Assembly: GCA_015999745.1 (NCBI GenBank)
Contig: JAECQP010000003.1
Coordinates: 1-64,000, forward strand
DNA length: 64,000 nucleotides
Source: Sphingobacteriia bacterium
GTDB taxonomy: Bacteria > Bacteroidota > Bacteroidia > Chitinophagales > Chitinophagaceae
Reading direction: 5' to 3'
The notes beneath the pieces were generated by a model that was given only the letters and a program-made list of their open reading frames with translations, did not search any database and had not been told where the DNA came from. Every line of letters begins with the position of its first letter. Within the stretch, counting starts at the first letter, position 1. Shown in pieces: positions 55,323-63,835 of this stretch. Position numbers and translations under genes: made by a program.

Positions 55323-55964
55323 TTATTTTCCGCCAAACTTCTCCTTGTAATAATCCACCTTAAAATCGTGAACAGGTGTAGGAGAGTCTTTGTATAGCTG
55401 TTTATTTTTCAAATAGCGTTCAGACCTGGCAATTCCCATATTAGAAGCCCCGGAAGGGGAATAAAGAATGGTCAGTTGAACAGGACGTCCAAAAAAACGA
55501 CTATCCAGAACCGTTTCCCGCATTTCCCTGATCTCTTTGGTTATGGAAAGCCCTAAGATATCCACGTAGAACAGTTTAAAAGCATTATTCCTCCCAAAAC
55601 CACTGGTAAACAGTATTTCCCTGACCTTGCTGTTCCGGATTTCTTCCCTGAGCTTCAGATTCAGCTCAACGGGAATCAGATCCTGATCCAGCGCTGAGGG
55701 TTTCTTTCTGTCACATTGAACAATCGTATCACTGACTGCAATTTTTCTTTTGTTCAGAAATTGCAATATACCTTCCAGTTGAATCGGCTTTTTCAATTCC
55801 GTAGGGAATGCTTCGCTCAGAATTGTCCAGATACTTGCTACATTGCCATAGAAAAAAGGAATGCTAAAGTTATGATGGTCATGGGGATGGATCGTTCCCA
55901 CAATCAGTCGTTCGCTATCCTTTGCAATCGGGTATTTATCCAGGTATTGATGGACGGTTCTCAT
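55323..55964 (-). CDS. Uracil-DNA-glycosylase-like protein
   Basis: This 213-residue protein shows the UDG-superfamily pattern at low identity. Motif 1 is near G23-T-I-H-P27, followed by PFFYGNVASIW (36-46), as in the mug/deoxyinosine glycosylase group (GTxPS ... FYYGxPxNxFW). A C-terminal LYSPSGASN (near 170) stands where the second motif SxSPA is expected. The His and Ser substitutions make enzyme activity uncertain. It overlaps the end of the HxlR regulator by four bases, so both are translated from one message. Confidence 0.6.
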   Translation of the reverse strand: MRTVHQYLDKYPIAKDSERLIVGTIHPHDHHNFSIPFFYGNVASIWTILSEAFPTELKKPIQLEGILQFLNKRKIAVSDTIVQCDRKKPSALDQDLIPVELNLKLREEIRNSKVREILFTSGFGRNNAFKLFYVDILGLSITKEIREMRETVLDSRFFGRPVQLTILYSPSGASNMGIARSERYLKNKQLYKDSPTPVHDFKVDYYKEKFGGK

Positions 55965-57342: not shown

Positions 57343-57723
57343 ATGAAAAAAAACAAAATAATCTATTGGGTAACCACAGGAATTATATCAGCCATGATGC
57401 TGTTCAGTGCATACGGGTATTTCAACAATCCGGATATCAAAGCGGGATTCACGCATTTGGGATTCCCGGACTATTTCAGAATAGAACTGGGTATTGCCAA
57501 GCTTGCGGGCGCTTTGTTGCTGGTGATACCGGTAATACCAAACACAGTTAAAGGGCTCACCTATTCTGGATTTGCCTTTACTTTTTTATCAGCCGCTCTT
57601 GCTCATGCGGCGAGCGGGGATCCTGCTTCGGCCATCATCACCCCACTGGTATTTCTGGCGATCCTTACCGTATCCTATGCTTACCATCAAAAATTGAAGC
57701 ACCGAACAGCCCCAATCATTTAG
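57343..57723 (+). CDS. DoxX-like membrane protein
   Basis: This 126-residue protein has four hydrophobic helices: 10-27, 45-65 with the family motif LGIAKLAGALLLVIP, 70-90 and 97-112. It is the DoxX_2/DUF4870-like type seen next to SDR and HxlR genes; in Bacillus, CatD of this family is controlled by an HxlR-type repressor. Its last four bases overlap the end of the convergent peptidase gene. It probably works with the SDR in detoxification. Confidence 0.82.
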   Translation: MKKNKIIYWVTTGIISAMMLFSAYGYFNNPDIKAGFTHLGFPDYFRIELGIAKLAGALLLVIPVIPNTVKGLTYSGFAFTFLSAALAHAASGDPASAIITPLVFLAILTVSYAYHQKLKHRTAPII

Positions 57724-59294
57724 TTATCATACCCACCGGCGCGCTTGGATTTAACGGGTGCAGGCCATTTTTGCGGACCATTGGGGCCGTTCGGCAGTAT
57801 GGCTTTTTCAGTGGAACTACGCTCAGGATCTTCACAGGCCATGTACACCAGGATAGCGGTCAGGATGGCATTGCTGCGTACATCATCAAACACAATTTTA
57901 TCGTAGGTATCCCTGTTGGTATGCCAGGTATAATTGAAATAAGACCAGTTCAACGCACCCAGTGAAAATGCGGGTACTCCAACTGCTACAAAGGAAGCAT
58001 GATCCGAACCGCCGCCACCGGGCATTCCGGGGAAATTGGTTTTGATGGAATCTGTAATTGATTTAGGTACAGCAGCCAGCCAGCGGCCCAGGTAGTCTTT
58101 GGCGTTGGCATAACCGGAACCGCCGATATTGACGATCCTTCCGGTACCATTGTCCTGGTTGAACAGGGCCTGGAGGTTGGAAACAACCTCAGGATGATCT
58201 TCTACAAATGCGCGGGAACCGTTCAGTCCCTGCTCCTCACTGCCCCAGTGTCCTACCAGGATGGTTCTTTTGGGATGAGGATATACCGCTTTTAAAATGC
58301 GCATGGCCTCCATCATCACCAACGTACCGGTACCATTATCAGTAGCGCCGGTACCACCGTCCCATGAATCGAAGTGTGCGGAGAGCATTACATATTCATT
58401 GGGCTTTTCAGTGCCTTTGATTTCAGCAAGGGTATTAAAGGTTGGGACCGTTCCCAATTCCTTAGACTGGGTATATATAGAAATAGAAGGTTGTTTGCCC
58501 GACTCGGTTAAGCGATAGAGCAATCCATAATCTTCCAGTGCAATATCCACAGTGGGAATTTTTTTCGTAAAAGCAGCGAAGATTTTATTGACGCCAAAGC
58601 CACTGGACCAGTTGCTGGCCACGATCCCCGCAGCGCCTGCTTTTTCGAGTGCGTCGGCCAGTTTGGCGTTGGAAAGGCCTGTTTTGCTGATGCGCTTTTT
58701 CCAGGCATCAGCCAGCGCAGTACGCTCAGCTTTCATTTTCTCAATAGAAGCTTTGGTACCAAACTCGTTCCAGTTATAATCCGGACGACCTGTGGGCTGC
58801 GGCATAGAGATCAGGACAAACTTCCCCTTTACATTGGGTAACCATTGTTGAAAAGCAAGAGAATCTGCAGCATCAGCCAGGATAATGGTTTCAGCCGTCA
58901 CCGGCTTTTTGGTTGCAGGGCTGAATGCCAGTTGGGTTCCTTCGATAGAGCGTGTCCATGGAGCCCCCATATCAATATGGGTAACGCCCCTGTCCCAACC
59001 GCGCCAGGTGCCATAGTTTTCCCGACGGGCGGGAATGCCCCATTGACCATACTGCGCAATCGCCCAGTCACTTGCCTGAACCATTTTGCCGGAACCAACC
59101 AGCCGGGGTCCAACCCCATCCATCAGTTCATGGGCCAGTCTTTTAAGTTGGGAACGGTCGTTCGCTTCCTGAACGATCGCAGCAACAGTGGCTTCTGTAC
59201 TGCTCACCTGTGCCGTAACAGAGAGCGAAACCAGGCTCAGCCCAACTACCAGCCCGGCCGCCTTTGTATGCAAAGTGGAGATCAAAATTTTCAT
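57720..59294 (-). CDS. Exported M28 family zinc aminopeptidase
   Basis: This protein has 524 residues from the ATG at 59294, with a signal peptide ending near SVTAQ. A PA-type insert (about 140-260) precedes the peptidase core. The zinc ligands are seen in SAHFDSWDGGTGATDNGTG (His and Asp), GHWGSEEQGLNGS (catalytic Glu and Glu ligand), LFNQDNGTG (Asp) and FPGMPGGGGSDHASF (His). All sites for two zinc ions are present. It would cleave N-terminal residues from peptides in the periplasm. Confidence 0.9.
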   Translation of the reverse strand: MKILISTLHTKAAGLVVGLSLVSLSVTAQVSSTEATVAAIVQEANDRSQLKRLAHELMDGVGPRLVGSGKMVQASDWAIAQYGQWGIPARRENYGTWRGWDRGVTHIDMGAPWTRSIEGTQLAFSPATKKPVTAETIILADAADSLAFQQWLPNVKGKFVLISMPQPTGRPDYNWNEFGTKASIEKMKAERTALADAWKKRISKTGLSNAKLADALEKAGAAGIVASNWSSGFGVNKIFAAFTKKIPTVDIALEDYGLLYRLTESGKQPSISIYTQSKELGTVPTFNTLAEIKGTEKPNEYVMLSAHFDSWDGGTGATDNGTGTLVMMEAMRILKAVYPHPKRTILVGHWGSEEQGLNGSRAFVEDHPEVVSNLQALFNQDNGTGRIVNIGGSGYANAKDYLGRWLAAVPKSITDSIKTNFPGMPGGGGSDHASFVAVGVPAFSLGALNWSYFNYTWHTNRDTYDKIVFDDVRSNAILTAILVYMACEDPERSSTEKAILPNGPNGPQKWPAPVKSKRAGGYDN

Positions 59295-59440
59295 GGGATA
59301 ATGATACAAAAGAAATGCGTACCGCCCCAGGATACAGAAGAGATTGTGATGGATGGATGAATGTCCGGCAATTTTTTCAATAACATTACAGTATGTATTT
59401 CAAAAAATTTTATAGTGCTATATATAATTAAGCGGTTAAA

Positions 59441-61393
59441 TTAGTTCCTGCGGGCCTTATCCCTGTTGTAAATGGTAAAAAACGGGATATCTGCCAGCAG
59501 TGAAAAATTGATCCTCGTTACACTCCTATTCGATTCTGTAATAGCGGCATTCCCGCTTTCATATTTAATGGTTCTGAGGTTCGGAATATAGCTAAAATGA
59601 ATCCCCGCTGAAACAGGCAGCTTAGGGCAGTTTACCAGTAGTCCGATTCCTGGTGAAAAGAAATGTTCCAATCGCAGGTTGGAATAAGATACCGTATCGT
59701 TATTCAATCTTTGATTTACCATAGACCCCAGATCTAAAAAACTCACAAAAGGGGTAAGAAATCCTTTCCCAACTGTTACTGATATTCCTATTGGGGCAGA
59801 TAAACCAATATTTCCTTTTGTTTGATTCTTCTGGCTGCCATAAGCTGTTTCCCAACCTCCCGCCAACCCTACATAGCCATTCAGCGATATATTAAAACTG
59901 CTGTGCCTTTTAATGGAAGCGCTTCCAATCGGCAAGGCATAGGCATTCAGCAGCTTTTCCATATCCGCTGCATTTTCTACTGTTGCCAGTTGCGACACAA
60001 ATGCAATGGTACGGGAAAACTTCATTTCCTTGCTCATATATGCACCAAATTCAATCGTCAACCGGGGAATAACCTGCTGGTAGTCCTTTTTCAGTATAGC
60101 TTCAAATATTGCAATGTATTTTCCGGGAACATCAACAACAGTATCATTGATCAGGTAGCGTTCATTGATTGCAGAAATATTTTTCAAGGCGCCAACAAAC
60201 TGACCCACTGATAGATTGACATTATTTATATAGGTCATGATCTCCTCGGGGGTCTTTAAATCAAACCCCCTGGACTTTACATAACTGTAAGTATTATTTA
60301 ACTTGTTCACAAACCTGACCAGGTCCTGCATCTTAGTTGCCAGCGGTACAATATTATCGGCATTCCTTACTTCCAGGTAATTTCTAAATTCCGGAACCTG
60401 AATCATTTGCTGATACAACAGCCCATAAAAATACCTCACTTCAGGTTTCTTTAAAGACACCTCTGTTGCCGGCAGAATGTTCAGGGGGTTAACCCATATA
60501 TCCCTGCTGCCTGCTGTATCTAATAAGGCCTGTGAAATAAGGTCCGCCGCATTAAGTATTTTGTAAACAGAGGAGTCTGAAGAATACTGTTCGTTCGCCA
60601 GTGATGTAACCAGCCGGTCTAAAGATTGTCCTTGTTGACTGTATTCAACAATATAGCTTCCCAGAAACAACATATCCTTCATTTTCGGGTTATTTTGCAA
60701 TAAAGGAAAAATGCCTTCGGGGTTTCTTATTATATTTTTGGGCAACTGCTCAATATCAAACTGAGCGGTATGCCTCAACTGTAATAAATCGGCAGTATAA
60801 TAAGAAGACGATCCTGAGCCGTACAGCTTTTCTATATAAGTAAATGTTTTTGGAAAAACAGACCTGATCAGTTGAGCATCTTTCTCAGTGTTGATTTGTT
60901 TGAACATCTGATCAATCGCCACATGTAAGGCTTCCTGCTTAAATCTGCCAGCCATAAAATTTGCAATTCCGTTTATAGCGGAGGCCTGCCAGCCTGCAGA
61001 TCCAAGACCGCCTGCAACCAATTCCAAAGATGAATAACTGATCGCTTTATCAACGGCCGTTCCTGTTCTCCCGCCTCCCATCACAGAATCCGGCATCATG
61101 TAATAGTTTTGCTTTGGCAGGATATCAGGAGGATAAATTCCCAACAAATGATCCTTTAGAAAAGGATTGGCCAGCAGTTCCTGATCATTGCCATATTTAT
61201 AGATTTTTTCCCTGAAAGCTTCAACAAAACTATTGATAATAAACGTGGTATCTTTTGTACTACGGGGAATACTATTTATGATATTGGCTAATTCCAGGGC
61301 ATCCAAATAGGTCTTTTGCTTGTTATATTGGGCAAACAGACCGGAACTACAAACCAGCGTCAATACAATCAGGAAGTATATCTTTTGCAGCAT
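59441..61393 (-). CDS. Uncharacterised 650-residue exported protein with C-terminal barrel-like region
   Basis: I do not recognise a family. A signal peptide ends after Ala21. Residues 25-490 are mainly helical, with many short amphipathic helices (for example IAIFEAILKKDYQQVIPRLTIEF cut at a loop). Residues about 500-645 are alternating strands: HSSFNISLNGYVGLAGGW, GNIGLSAPIGISVTVG, LEHFFSPGIGLLVNC and SVTRINFSLLADIPFF. These resemble a small outer-membrane beta-barrel, but the last residues (DKARRN) are not the usual aromatic end. It follows the 272-residue gene by 64 bases on the same strand and may be its partner. Confidence 0.7.
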   Translation of the reverse strand: MLQKIYFLIVLTLVCSSGLFAQYNKQKTYLDALELANIINSIPRSTKDTTFIINSFVEAFREKIYKYGNDQELLANPFLKDHLLGIYPPDILPKQNYYMMPDSVMGGGRTGTAVDKAISYSSLELVAGGLGSAGWQASAINGIANFMAGRFKQEALHVAIDQMFKQINTEKDAQLIRSVFPKTFTYIEKLYGSGSSSYYTADLLQLRHTAQFDIEQLPKNIIRNPEGIFPLLQNNPKMKDMLFLGSYIVEYSQQGQSLDRLVTSLANEQYSSDSSVYKILNAADLISQALLDTAGSRDIWVNPLNILPATEVSLKKPEVRYFYGLLYQQMIQVPEFRNYLEVRNADNIVPLATKMQDLVRFVNKLNNTYSYVKSRGFDLKTPEEIMTYINNVNLSVGQFVGALKNISAINERYLINDTVVDVPGKYIAIFEAILKKDYQQVIPRLTIEFGAYMSKEMKFSRTIAFVSQLATVENAADMEKLLNAYALPIGSASIKRHSSFNISLNGYVGLAGGWETAYGSQKNQTKGNIGLSAPIGISVTVGKGFLTPFVSFLDLGSMVNQRLNNDTVSYSNLRLEHFFSPGIGLLVNCPKLPVSAGIHFSYIPNLRTIKYESGNAAITESNRSVTRINFSLLADIPFFTIYNRDKARRN

Positions 61394-61457
61394 AGGGCAA
61401 TATTTAATTTAGAAATTATACGAAGGCAGCCATGCAATAAGAAGATCATCTACCGGA

Positions 61458-62276
61458 TCAGGAACGATAGGCTGAAGATATATTCGGCTCGGCAAACACC
61501 CTTGCATATACACTGGTGTCTTCCCGCAAGGAAGATTGAATTCCGGAAGGTGCAAACCAATATCCGTTTTGGTCCATGATCTGCAATCCCATTGTCCCCA
61601 GCATAAATGGCACATTTGCCCAGGGAGTGGTTGTTCCCTTTAATCTTTTATATTCAAAAACAGACCAGCCACTGGGCTGTCCCGGGATATACGGACCGGG
61701 AATACCTGTAACAGGGGACGTATAAAACCTTTGCCAGTTATTATTAGCATCCAGTAAAAGCACCAGGTTTCTGTCCAGTTTTTTCTCAAAATAGTTCTGA
61801 AACCTGAATACCGTCACATACTCACCATTCGGCGCCTGCATTTTTATGCCGTATTGTTTTGAGAAATCATCTGTAATAATGCAACTGAAAAAGTTTCCAT
61901 GCGCATCTCTGGCCCAGTCCCCGGTTCCCCAATCAAACACCGTTACATATGGCTTTACTCCCTTTTGATATACGGTAAGAAATTCCAGTGGAGCTATGTT
62001 TTTAGGCTCTGAGGTAAGATAGATCAAATCATCTCCGTAAACCTTAATATCATTCCTGTTATAGATATGATACCCGAATATGCCAAAACTCGGAACATCT
62101 ATCATTACCCCGTTAAAACAGGTATCGTATGGATCTTTCGGCAGGCTTACACAGCCTATCTTAAAACCATGTACTCTTTCCGGCTGTTTAACCTCTGATG
62201 CCGTTTCAATAAGATCTCCTTTAATTTCGGTCAGATCAAGCGATTCAAGGCTTTCCGGAATAAATGGTGTAAACAT
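61458..62276 (-). CDS. Uncharacterised 272-residue protein
   Basis: I do not recognise a family. No signal peptide is visible and the protein starts MFTPFIPESLESLDL. It is rich in beta strands, aromatic residues and Gly/Pro: GIFGYHIYNRNDIKVYGDDLIYL, PYVTVFDWGTGDWARDAHGNF, EYVTVFRFQNYFEKK and GPYIPGQPSGWSVFEYKRL suggest a beta-sandwich or propeller-like fold. It lies 64 bases upstream of the 650-residue exported protein on the same strand. The gene is more AT-rich than its neighbours. Function unknown. Confidence 0.65.
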   Translation of the reverse strand: MFTPFIPESLESLDLTEIKGDLIETASEVKQPERVHGFKIGCVSLPKDPYDTCFNGVMIDVPSFGIFGYHIYNRNDIKVYGDDLIYLTSEPKNIAPLEFLTVYQKGVKPYVTVFDWGTGDWARDAHGNFFSCIITDDFSKQYGIKMQAPNGEYVTVFRFQNYFEKKLDRNLVLLLDANNNWQRFYTSPVTGIPGPYIPGQPSGWSVFEYKRLKGTTTPWANVPFMLGTMGLQIMDQNGYWFAPSGIQSSLREDTSVYARVFAEPNISSAYRS

Positions 62277-62416
62277 AATGCGGGTAATTTAAGTTGCGCG
62301 TTAAGGTATTTGCTGATTCAACAGTAAAATATCCTTTTCCCGGGACTTATGGCACTTTTTACATATACAGACCAGAAGACTTCACAAAGCAGCAGGAATC
62401 TTTAACCGGAACGGTC

Positions 62417-63835
62417 CTACATAACCGTAAACCCGCTTTCAAACACCCTGAACCGCGCGTCCAGGTCTTTGATCAGTCTGCGCTTCACCACAGGATCTTC
62501 AATAAAACTATATTCAAGACTATTATATACCAACTGCTTAATGGCAGCATAGGAGAAGTCTTTATATCGTTTAGCCAGCAGTACGTACTGCTCCGTCATA
62601 TTGGTTCTGAGCACACCGGCATCATCGGTGCTGATCACCATGGGTACACTGAACGCTTTATATAGCAAGATTGGATGACGGCCTTCTTTTATTTTCAGAA
62701 TAAACTCATTACTGACCAGGTTGATTTCAACAGTCACCTTGTTCTTAGCCATGTAGCGCAACAACTCATAGTTGTTTGCTTCATGTGCAATATCCACCCC
62801 ATGCCCTATCCGGCTGGCTCTGGCAGTATGCACGGCAGCGCCAATATGCCAGGTAAGCGCTTCGGGCAGTACCAGCCCCAATGCCAGTTCTCCTGCATGC
62901 AGGGAGTTTCGGACTTTTGGGTAGCGGGTATTACAATACTTATACATCACCATGTGCAGCCAGTAATCCTTCATGGAAGTTTCGCCATGCTCGGGTGAAA
63001 CAATGTTCACCCCATCAATGATCGGGCTGAGGTCTGCAGAAATAAAAGCCGCAACCAGGTCGCGGAACAGGGTCACAGGCTCCATGAAACGCAACACAAA
63101 GTTCTGGTAACGCATGGTAAAAAGGGAATCGTCCAATCGCAGTGTATGATGCAATTTTTCAATCAGTTCAACATTGTATTTGCGGGCATCGGCTGCGATG
63201 TTCTTTTGTACCAGGTACGTATACAAAGTATCCAGCGTTTTAAATACAGCCTCCTCGTTGCGGGTTGCCTGATAATTCCTTAAACGTTCATTCAATTGAA
63301 CAAAATCCTCCACAGAAACGGTTGAGGGAATCGTTGTAAGCTGGGTTTCAATGTAACTCAGGTTTTCCCGGATAGCTCTTTGCTTCAATTCCGTTAAACC
63401 AGCTTCAAAGCTTCCGCCAATCGCTGCCCCAAACTTATCGAAAGACTCAAAAAATTGCTTATCGGATGGATAGTGCGCATCGTTGTAATCCTTCACAGAC
63501 CATTTCCGGATCAACAAGTCTTTGTACAAATCCAGCGCTCCCCGGCTCTTTACGGCAGATAAGCGTTCCCAACTGCCGGTTACCGGTTGCTCCGCGGCAA
63601 CAGTCATCGTGGCCGCATTCACAAAAAAATCTGCTTCAATGGCATGTGCCAGCAGCGTTTCTGCATAAACAGATCCGCCGTAATGGTGATGCAGGTCGCC
63701 TCCCTTCGGCATCCGGGAAAAGAATGCAGTCAATGCTGCATCATTGTTCCTGATTTTTTCAAAATACTGGCTTACCGGTTGAGCATGACCAACAAAAACA
63801 ACAATCCATAAAAGAAAGGAGTAGCATATTTTCAT
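62417..63835 (-). CDS. Exported adenosine deaminase-like protein (ADGF type)
   Basis: This 472-residue protein has a signal peptide ending near VGHAQ. The deaminase metal and active-site set is present: MPKGGDLHHHYGGS (His pair), SLHAGELALG (His, Glu), SRIGHGVDIA (His) and STDDAGVL (Asp pair). The N-terminal 100 residues are the extended part of secreted adenosine deaminase growth-factor-like enzymes. It would convert adenosine or a related purine to inosine outside the cytoplasm. Confidence 0.88.
   Translation of the reverse strand: MKICYSFLLWIVVFVGHAQPVSQYFEKIRNNDAALTAFFSRMPKGGDLHHHYGGSVYAETLLAHAIEADFFVNAATMTVAAEQPVTGSWERLSAVKSRGALDLYKDLLIRKWSVKDYNDAHYPSDKQFFESFDKFGAAIGGSFEAGLTELKQRAIRENLSYIETQLTTIPSTVSVEDFVQLNERLRNYQATRNEEAVFKTLDTLYTYLVQKNIAADARKYNVELIEKLHHTLRLDDSLFTMRYQNFVLRFMEPVTLFRDLVAAFISADLSPIIDGVNIVSPEHGETSMKDYWLHMVMYKYCNTRYPKVRNSLHAGELALGLVLPEALTWHIGAAVHTARASRIGHGVDIAHEANNYELLRYMAKNKVTVEINLVSNEFILKIKEGRHPILLYKAFSVPMVISTDDAGVLRTNMTEQYVLLAKRYKDFSYAAIKQLVYNSLEYSFIEDPVVKRRLIKDLDARFRVFESGFTVM

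Follow-up and report, generated by a model that had tools for sequence, protein, structure and literature searches.

A broad, seemingly undescribed family of exported bacterial proteins whose genes are linked to those of varying leaderless peptidases

Some gene clusters that combine one conserved protein with various peptidases have proved to act against phages; in the nuclease–protease pairs of Hachiman and AVAST and in the caspase–nuclease loci called canu, as described in the parts of PMC12799240 covered here, the partner of the peptidase is a pro-nuclease activated by cleavage. In the NucA–peptidase conflict systems that Kaur et al. 2020 list as System 3, a single operon or polypeptide brings together trypsin-like and S8 peptidases, some of which have transmembrane (TM) segments, again according to part of the paper (PMC7159879), whose main text uses neither “outer membrane” nor “signal peptide.” These nuclease–protease and caspase–nuclease loci and NucA–peptidase systems are the nearest kinds to the locus described here, and the portions of the two papers covered mention no exported component in them. 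Our locus lies in a 64,000-nucleotide stretch of a Sphingobacteriia bacterium genome (hereafter the window) and holds the genes for a larger protein (BIG) and a smaller one (SMALL), which are arranged with their flanks and features as follows; G040 denotes the genome of a close relative.

57720..59294, minus strand: M28-family peptidase, left flank (Pfam PF04389, E 1.1e-36), common to G040
59372..62425, no strand: variable-site cassette with both genes inside, the stretch not common to G040
59441..61393, minus strand: BIG (650 aa), an exported protein, helical up to a strand-rich C-terminus, from a broad unnamed family
59459..59938, minus strand: strand-rich, putatively barrel-like end of BIG, residues ~486–645 (moment profile and consensus)
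59939..61321, minus strand: helical region of BIG, residues ~25–485 (hydrophobic-moment profile and conservation in 56 members)
61331..61393, minus strand: Sec signal peptide of BIG, residues ~1–21, read from the sequence by eye
61458..62276, minus strand: SMALL, 272 aa, leaderless by eye, of no known family, in a slot held by peptidases in many relatives
62417..63835, minus strand: adenosine deaminase-like protein, right flank (Pfam PF00962, E 2.2e-18), common to G040

The two open reading frames (ORFs) are as a preliminary description of the window had given them, namely 650 and 272 aa in length, 64 bp apart, and both on the minus strand, and they are more than chance ORFs because both have homologues elsewhere. 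BIG begins with MLQKIYFLIVLTLVCSSGLFAQ, which by eye is a Sec signal peptide. A hydrophobic-moment profile with 25-residue blocks was mostly helix-like as far as residue 475 or so and mostly strand-like beyond it, with block 601–625 as the exception there; the leader and the profile thus agree with the earlier picture of an exported protein that is helical and then strand-rich, apart from that one opposite block. A single-sequence AF2 model placed helices before residue 485 and strands after 535, but its mean pLDDT was only 34 and the layout is hence not usable as evidence. Pfam, NCBIfam, and PADLOC were empty up to E 1 for BIG as well as for SMALL, which agrees with the earlier remark that neither product matches a known family, and a PHROG search with both reached a best E of 0.2, i.e., the chance level. 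The PDB hits of BIG to designed helical bundles, with a best E of 0.0021, were judged to be chance or coiled-coil similarity. BIG is probably an outer-membrane protein of which the strand-rich end would form the barrel; among the 56 BIG members scanned, no Pfam barrel family was matched, including those of type V (autotransporter or two-partner) secretion.

Homologues of BIG were found by a single-sequence search in 10 of 100 genomes, its own included, and hence in nine of the 99 others. With a profile made from ten members (A1), BIG was found in 89 of the 396 genomes of the window's order and in 17 of the 392 of its phylum, the own genome being counted in both; genomes supplying rows of A1 match by construction and are included in these counts where drawn. 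The window's BIG gives a significant match to the family over both the helical and the C-terminal regions, and being itself a row of A1, it does so by construction, so that the independent support comes from the single-sequence search. When 56 of the 88 BIGs were aligned (A6), R150, E154, P181, and D213 (window numbering), which lie in the helical region, were near-invariant, as were several Gly and Pro residues of the C-terminal part, and the family consensus terminates near VDIP. A signal-peptide-like N-terminus was picked up by a crude pattern in 62 of the 88 family ORFs, many of which have uncertain starts. Searches with the 56 members returned isolated single-member matches only in Pfam and NCBIfam and, in the PDB, designed helical bundles and other chains that aligned mainly with the helical part. 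The family appears to be broad and patchy, has no convincing match in Pfam, NCBIfam, or the PDB, and is seemingly undescribed. Neither gene turned out to have many orthologues with a known fold and role: BIG has many relatives without an assigned role, and one was found for SMALL.

BIG was absent from the plasmids and viral contigs searched, and no additional copy was detected in the six genomes searched from the family of its nearest relative. This relative (in locus L015) is 37–38% identical to the window's BIG, and the pair sits on a long branch of the tree. Its gene (L015:10008-11507, minus strand) lacks the strand-rich end, encoding only 499 aa, and shares 4 bp with a 1196-aa ORF having a beta-helix match (L015:6421-10011, minus strand), an arrangement that may represent a fusion, a deletion, or an assembly join.

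The neighborhood of BIG was examined in 89 loci, the window included, which are the better-scoring part of the BIG matches and not all of them; genes were the longest-ORF calls of our scripts, and 88 loci had a called BIG, L071 being dropped because the caller chose a longer ORF on the opposite strand. A subtilase gene was located directly upstream of BIG (position −1) in 23 of the 88 loci versus 1 of 784 other positions (Fisher p 1.6e-23), and when one locus was taken per genus, with the window as its own group, in 17 of 48 versus 0 of 469 elsewhere; this positional control concerns subtilases only. These 23 loci cover 19 genera and six families, and the subtilase is on the same strand as BIG in 23/23 and separated from it by no more than 20 nt, or overlapping with it, in 19/23. 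The Asp–His–Ser triad was kept in all of the 24 subtilases from our local search (the 24th, in L090, is not adjacent to BIG), and an N-terminal hydrophobic segment was present in none of the 24. The seeds of the local model were three of the partner subtilases, and dissimilar subtilases elsewhere could therefore be missed; the Pfam tallies of the neighbors are independent of this model. PADLOC's “subtilase” model (PDLC03014) matched all three S8 partners scanned (1.4e-16 to 2.2e-19), two of which also matched IetS weakly (best 2.8e-9), and such matches would fit a defense role.

Pfam was run on 57 neighbors (gap to BIG of up to 100, at least 100 aa, the window's excluded) from the first 69 BIG loci, the 19 later loci lying outside this set. 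At E ≤0.01, the 37 upstream neighbors included 19 Peptidase_S8, three Trypsin_2, one CHAT, and one Agglutinin_C; three Trypsin_2, one Peptidase_C11, two CHAP, and two PG_binding_1 were among the 20 downstream. Trypsin-like genes, which were sought at all positions, occurred at −1 (six loci) and +1 (three loci) only. The total of 11 is made up of nine detected by a local profile (seeds L023, L110, and L112) and of L078 and L105, assigned by motifs alone, in which a trypsin-like end with no Pfam match is fused to a membrane protein; Pfam at E 0.01 backs three upstream and three downstream trypsin-like genes, a tally that does not identify which, and the L023 protein has a Pfam E of 0.012 only. 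CHAT genes were present in eight related loci (two by Pfam and six by similarity); they are interrelated, have leader-like starts, and lie 71–350 bp from BIG, and L072 has a further CHAT-like gene downstream of BIG on the opposite strand. Also found were a C11 gene downstream in L088, a C70 gene two genes upstream in L113, and Agglutinin_C in L096 and its relative L106. A peptidase is thus near BIG in 46 of the 88 loci, four downstream genes (three trypsin-like and one C11) being counted, and none was recognized in the other 42, which include L015 and the window. What the evidence supports best is a genetic link between BIG, as a conserved exported component, and leaderless peptidases that vary in kind.

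Some other genes were observed on the downstream side. The gene after BIG in L082 (8057-8782, plus strand) matches YLATT (YEATS-Like-Associating Three TM, PF20303; E 1.3e-27), and that in L085 (8301-9254, plus strand) combines TM-like segments with an OmpA match (E 1.6e-4) that is weak and falls under the Pfam cut-off. Related genes with no evident leader directly follow BIG in L089 (4882-5823, minus strand) and L104 (4493-5434, minus strand), and we take them to be the two downstream CHAP/PG_binding_1 members, which are endolysin-like.

In 17 of the 88 loci, BIG is preceded by a related membrane protein at −1 (fused), −2, or −3, and 71 loci are without it. Its hydrophobic segments number three in 15 and two in 2 of these 17 proteins, and 15 of the 17 loci also have a subtilase or trypsin-like partner. 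The flanking charges suggest a cytosolic C-terminus for the membrane protein, and in three loci (L078, L104, and L105) the last TM segment is followed by a protease-like part with GDSG, on the side that carries positive charge and is presumably cytosolic. Eight members searched against Pfam gave nothing better than E 0.0077, and a query of the window's genome with one membrane-protein sequence gave no match, an uninformative negative.

A quick tree of 73 BIGs, 15 long or partial ones being excluded, supports the view that partner types were gained, lost, and exchanged several times. By its starred branches, the S8 label must have been gained or lost at least seven times and the trypsin-like label at least four times, and all partner labels together require 18 changes, whereas shuffled labels require 38.7 on average. 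Subtilase and trypsin-like partners, four of each, are intermixed within a group of eight that has a support of 90 and partly open inner forks. The partners are therefore inherited, gained or lost, and probably exchanged. In the genus of the window, L081 has BIG with both a subtilase and the membrane protein, and L019 and L021 have BIG without either.

BIG and SMALL sit at a variable site. DNA homology with G040 (locus L168) ends at 59371 and restarts at 62426; the flanking M28 peptidase, which has its own leader-like start and is kept in G040, is about 85% (84.9%) identical in nucleotides, and the adenosine deaminase about 81% (80.8%), the latter identity also being given as 85%. Neither BIG nor SMALL was found in the G040 genome, where their position is occupied by an ORF (L168:7058-8107, minus strand) that matches the SocA/Panacea and MqsA antitoxins. 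A second genome has the deaminase (64% identity) in a different setting. Of the acquisition by transfer that the preliminary description had tentatively suggested, this comparison shows the variable site, with another gene between the same flanks in G040, but neither a direction nor a means of transfer. The cassette borders have no convincing end repeats, and promoter-like sites were fewer than in shuffled sequences, with terminator-like sites about equal to them. In base composition, BIG has the lowest GC (0.409) of the 43 window ORFs of at least 150 aa (mean 0.461, sd 0.023), and SMALL (GC 0.425) has the lowest GC3 (0.414). The two genes are thus AT-rich, as had been noticed, but the compositional signal is modest because their codon-usage distances are within range (51st and 77th percentile). 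Elsewhere in the window, a 213-aa ORF (55323-55964, minus strand) with a GC of 0.419 has no Pfam match up to E 1.

SMALL appears to be almost unique, and in the window it fills the slot that peptidases often occupy beside BIG elsewhere. It holds position −1 on the same strand at a spacing of 64 bp, longer than most peptidase gaps, and no peptidase partner is directly beside BIG here; the M28 gene downstream is not taken as one, given its own leader-like start and its presence in G040, where BIG was not found. With exact peptide patterns, which detect close relatives only, a search over 84,980 species found one relative (56% identity), and its 14.6-kb locus (L014) has no BIG; BIG was not found in the genome of that relative either, in a search run without a positive control. 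A NUMOD4-type gene (L014:2218-3303, minus strand) near this relative hints at mobility there. SMALL was matched in 1 of 100 relatives' genomes and 1 of 385 phylum genomes, in both cases its own, and at E 0.01 in 4 of 396 order genomes, namely its own and three with short matches (E 0.0028–0.0061) that were judged to be chance; it was absent from the viral contigs, phages, and plasmids searched. The idea of a conserved two-gene unit is accordingly not upheld, since the relative of SMALL is without BIG and the commonest neighbor of BIG is a subtilase gene; of the surface or secretion-linked system once proposed for the pair, what stays plausible is an envelope or surface-type BIG.

As to its nature, the description of SMALL as “beta-rich” is weakly supported, the moment profile being mixed and an AF2 model from two sequences (pLDDT 38) unusable. 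His70, Asp115, and Ser202 are conserved in the two-sequence alignment with a spacing that we take to be chymotrypsin-like, but two homologues cannot show a triad and we do not claim one; comparison with five trypsin-like partners gave no similarity (hhalign probability 0.1), Pfam gave no match, and a trypsin-like or other peptidase-family assignment was not adopted. SMALL was not similar to other genes of the BIG loci (best other E 0.057), and its PDB hits to GH1-type enzymes (best E 0.012) and GH11 xylanases (E 0.27) were judged to be chance or coiled-coil similarity.

The most likely reading, at a probability of roughly one half, is a protease-coupled module in which BIG serves at the envelope and the partners change. 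BIG would then be the exported, probably outer-membrane-anchored component, and its helical part, on the periplasmic side, would cooperate with the leaderless, presumably cytosolic peptidase encoded just upstream; in a subset of loci, an inner-membrane protein of about three TM segments would go along with the peptidase or be fused to it. A likely use would be the coupling of an envelope event to proteolysis inside the cell, with BIG staying constant and the peptidase clan (subtilase, trypsin-like, and others) varying among relatives. The peptidase position is held by SMALL in the window, and the locus would thus represent a reduced form of the module, or one with a new partner, at a variable site. 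What speaks against such a module is that 42 loci are without a recognized peptidase and that some neighbors are other enzymes, the upstream ones including two 5'-nucleotidase-like genes and one gamma-glutamyltranspeptidase gene. The leader-like starts and the distances of the CHAT genes, the 71 loci that lack the membrane protein, the wider gap in the window, and the missing similarity of SMALL to the trypsin-like partners and to other genes of the loci also count against it. In a more far-reaching form, which we regard as doubtful, BIG, the inner-membrane protein, and the leaderless peptidase would span the envelope as an undescribed device by which an event at the surface leads to cytosolic proteolysis, peptidases of different clans would plug into one conserved outer component, and SMALL would be a new output module, either a non-peptidase or an unrecognized peptidase. 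Somewhat better placed, though still tentative, is the view that a hotspot has brought SMALL and BIG next to each other as unrelated cargo, with BIG alone linked to peptidases, which is compatible with our preferred reading of BIG; the BIG-free surroundings of SMALL's only relative, the 64-bp gap, and the lack of SMALL beside the nearest kin of BIG in L015 favor it, whereas both genes being in one non-homologous block, on the same strand, and low in GC speaks against it.

Two further possibilities assign BIG another task. In the role of an export helper, BIG, together with the membrane protein in loci that have it, would export its leaderless partner or display it on the surface, the partner being SMALL in this case and a peptidase elsewhere, and SH3b-like N-termini and endolysin-like neighbors would act in the wall. 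The leaderless subtilases, the putative SH3b-like N-terminal stretches seen by eye in some partners, and the occurrence of CHAP and PG_binding_1 each in 2 of the 20 downstream neighbors would be consistent with this; nonetheless, the region of about 160 residues corresponds to a barrel of about eight strands, which is too narrow for the passage of a folded enzyme, and 71 of the 88 loci have no membrane partner, so that we consider an export helper unlikely. Less probable still is a lytic effector, in which the peptidase would activate or release BIG, or the helical part of BIG would disrupt the envelope when triggered, leading to cell death as in protease-triggered bacterial immunity. Several peptidase clans beside one conserved protein, as in the nuclease–protease and caspase–nuclease loci (PMC12799240, in part), and the endolysin-like downstream neighbors argue for an effector, but BIG is exported by its own leader and the subtilases are leaderless, and the two would hence not meet without a further step; also, the two BIGs scanned with PADLOC gave no match.

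Returning to BIG as the envelope part of a protease-coupled module, the family is present in about a fifth of the sampled order genomes, and a growable, testable member should therefore exist. Bacterial gasdermins resemble BIG in being non-enzymatic proteins that adjoin interchangeable proteases, but gasdermins, which work from inside the cell, are not known to carry a Sec leader, whereas BIG has an N-terminal leader (by eye) and no Pfam match. The three S8 partners scanned are like the defense subtilases of PADLOC (PDLC03014, and in two of them weakly IetS of the IetAS pair); these matches may, however, reflect general subtilase similarity. The BIG–peptidase pairing is not named in the portions covered of PMC12799240, PMC7159879, and PMC8195603 or in the other literature searched, a partial search that does not show its absence in print. 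Trypsin-like and S8 peptidases, TM segments, and a shared operon or polypeptide are features in common with the NucA–peptidase systems (PMC7159879, in part); no NucA-type match was among the families listed for the 37 upstream neighbors or among the best 25 of the 29 families for the 20 downstream ones, in a scan of the genes directly adjoining BIG. An exported envelope component like that of the BIG clusters is not described in the parts of PMC12799240 covered here. Unlike the Hachiman/AVAST and canu loci as presented there, BIG is exported, helical, and putatively barrel-like and is known here from sequence, not from defense activity; like them, the BIG loci are short gene clusters in which one conserved partner is joined by peptidases of different families.
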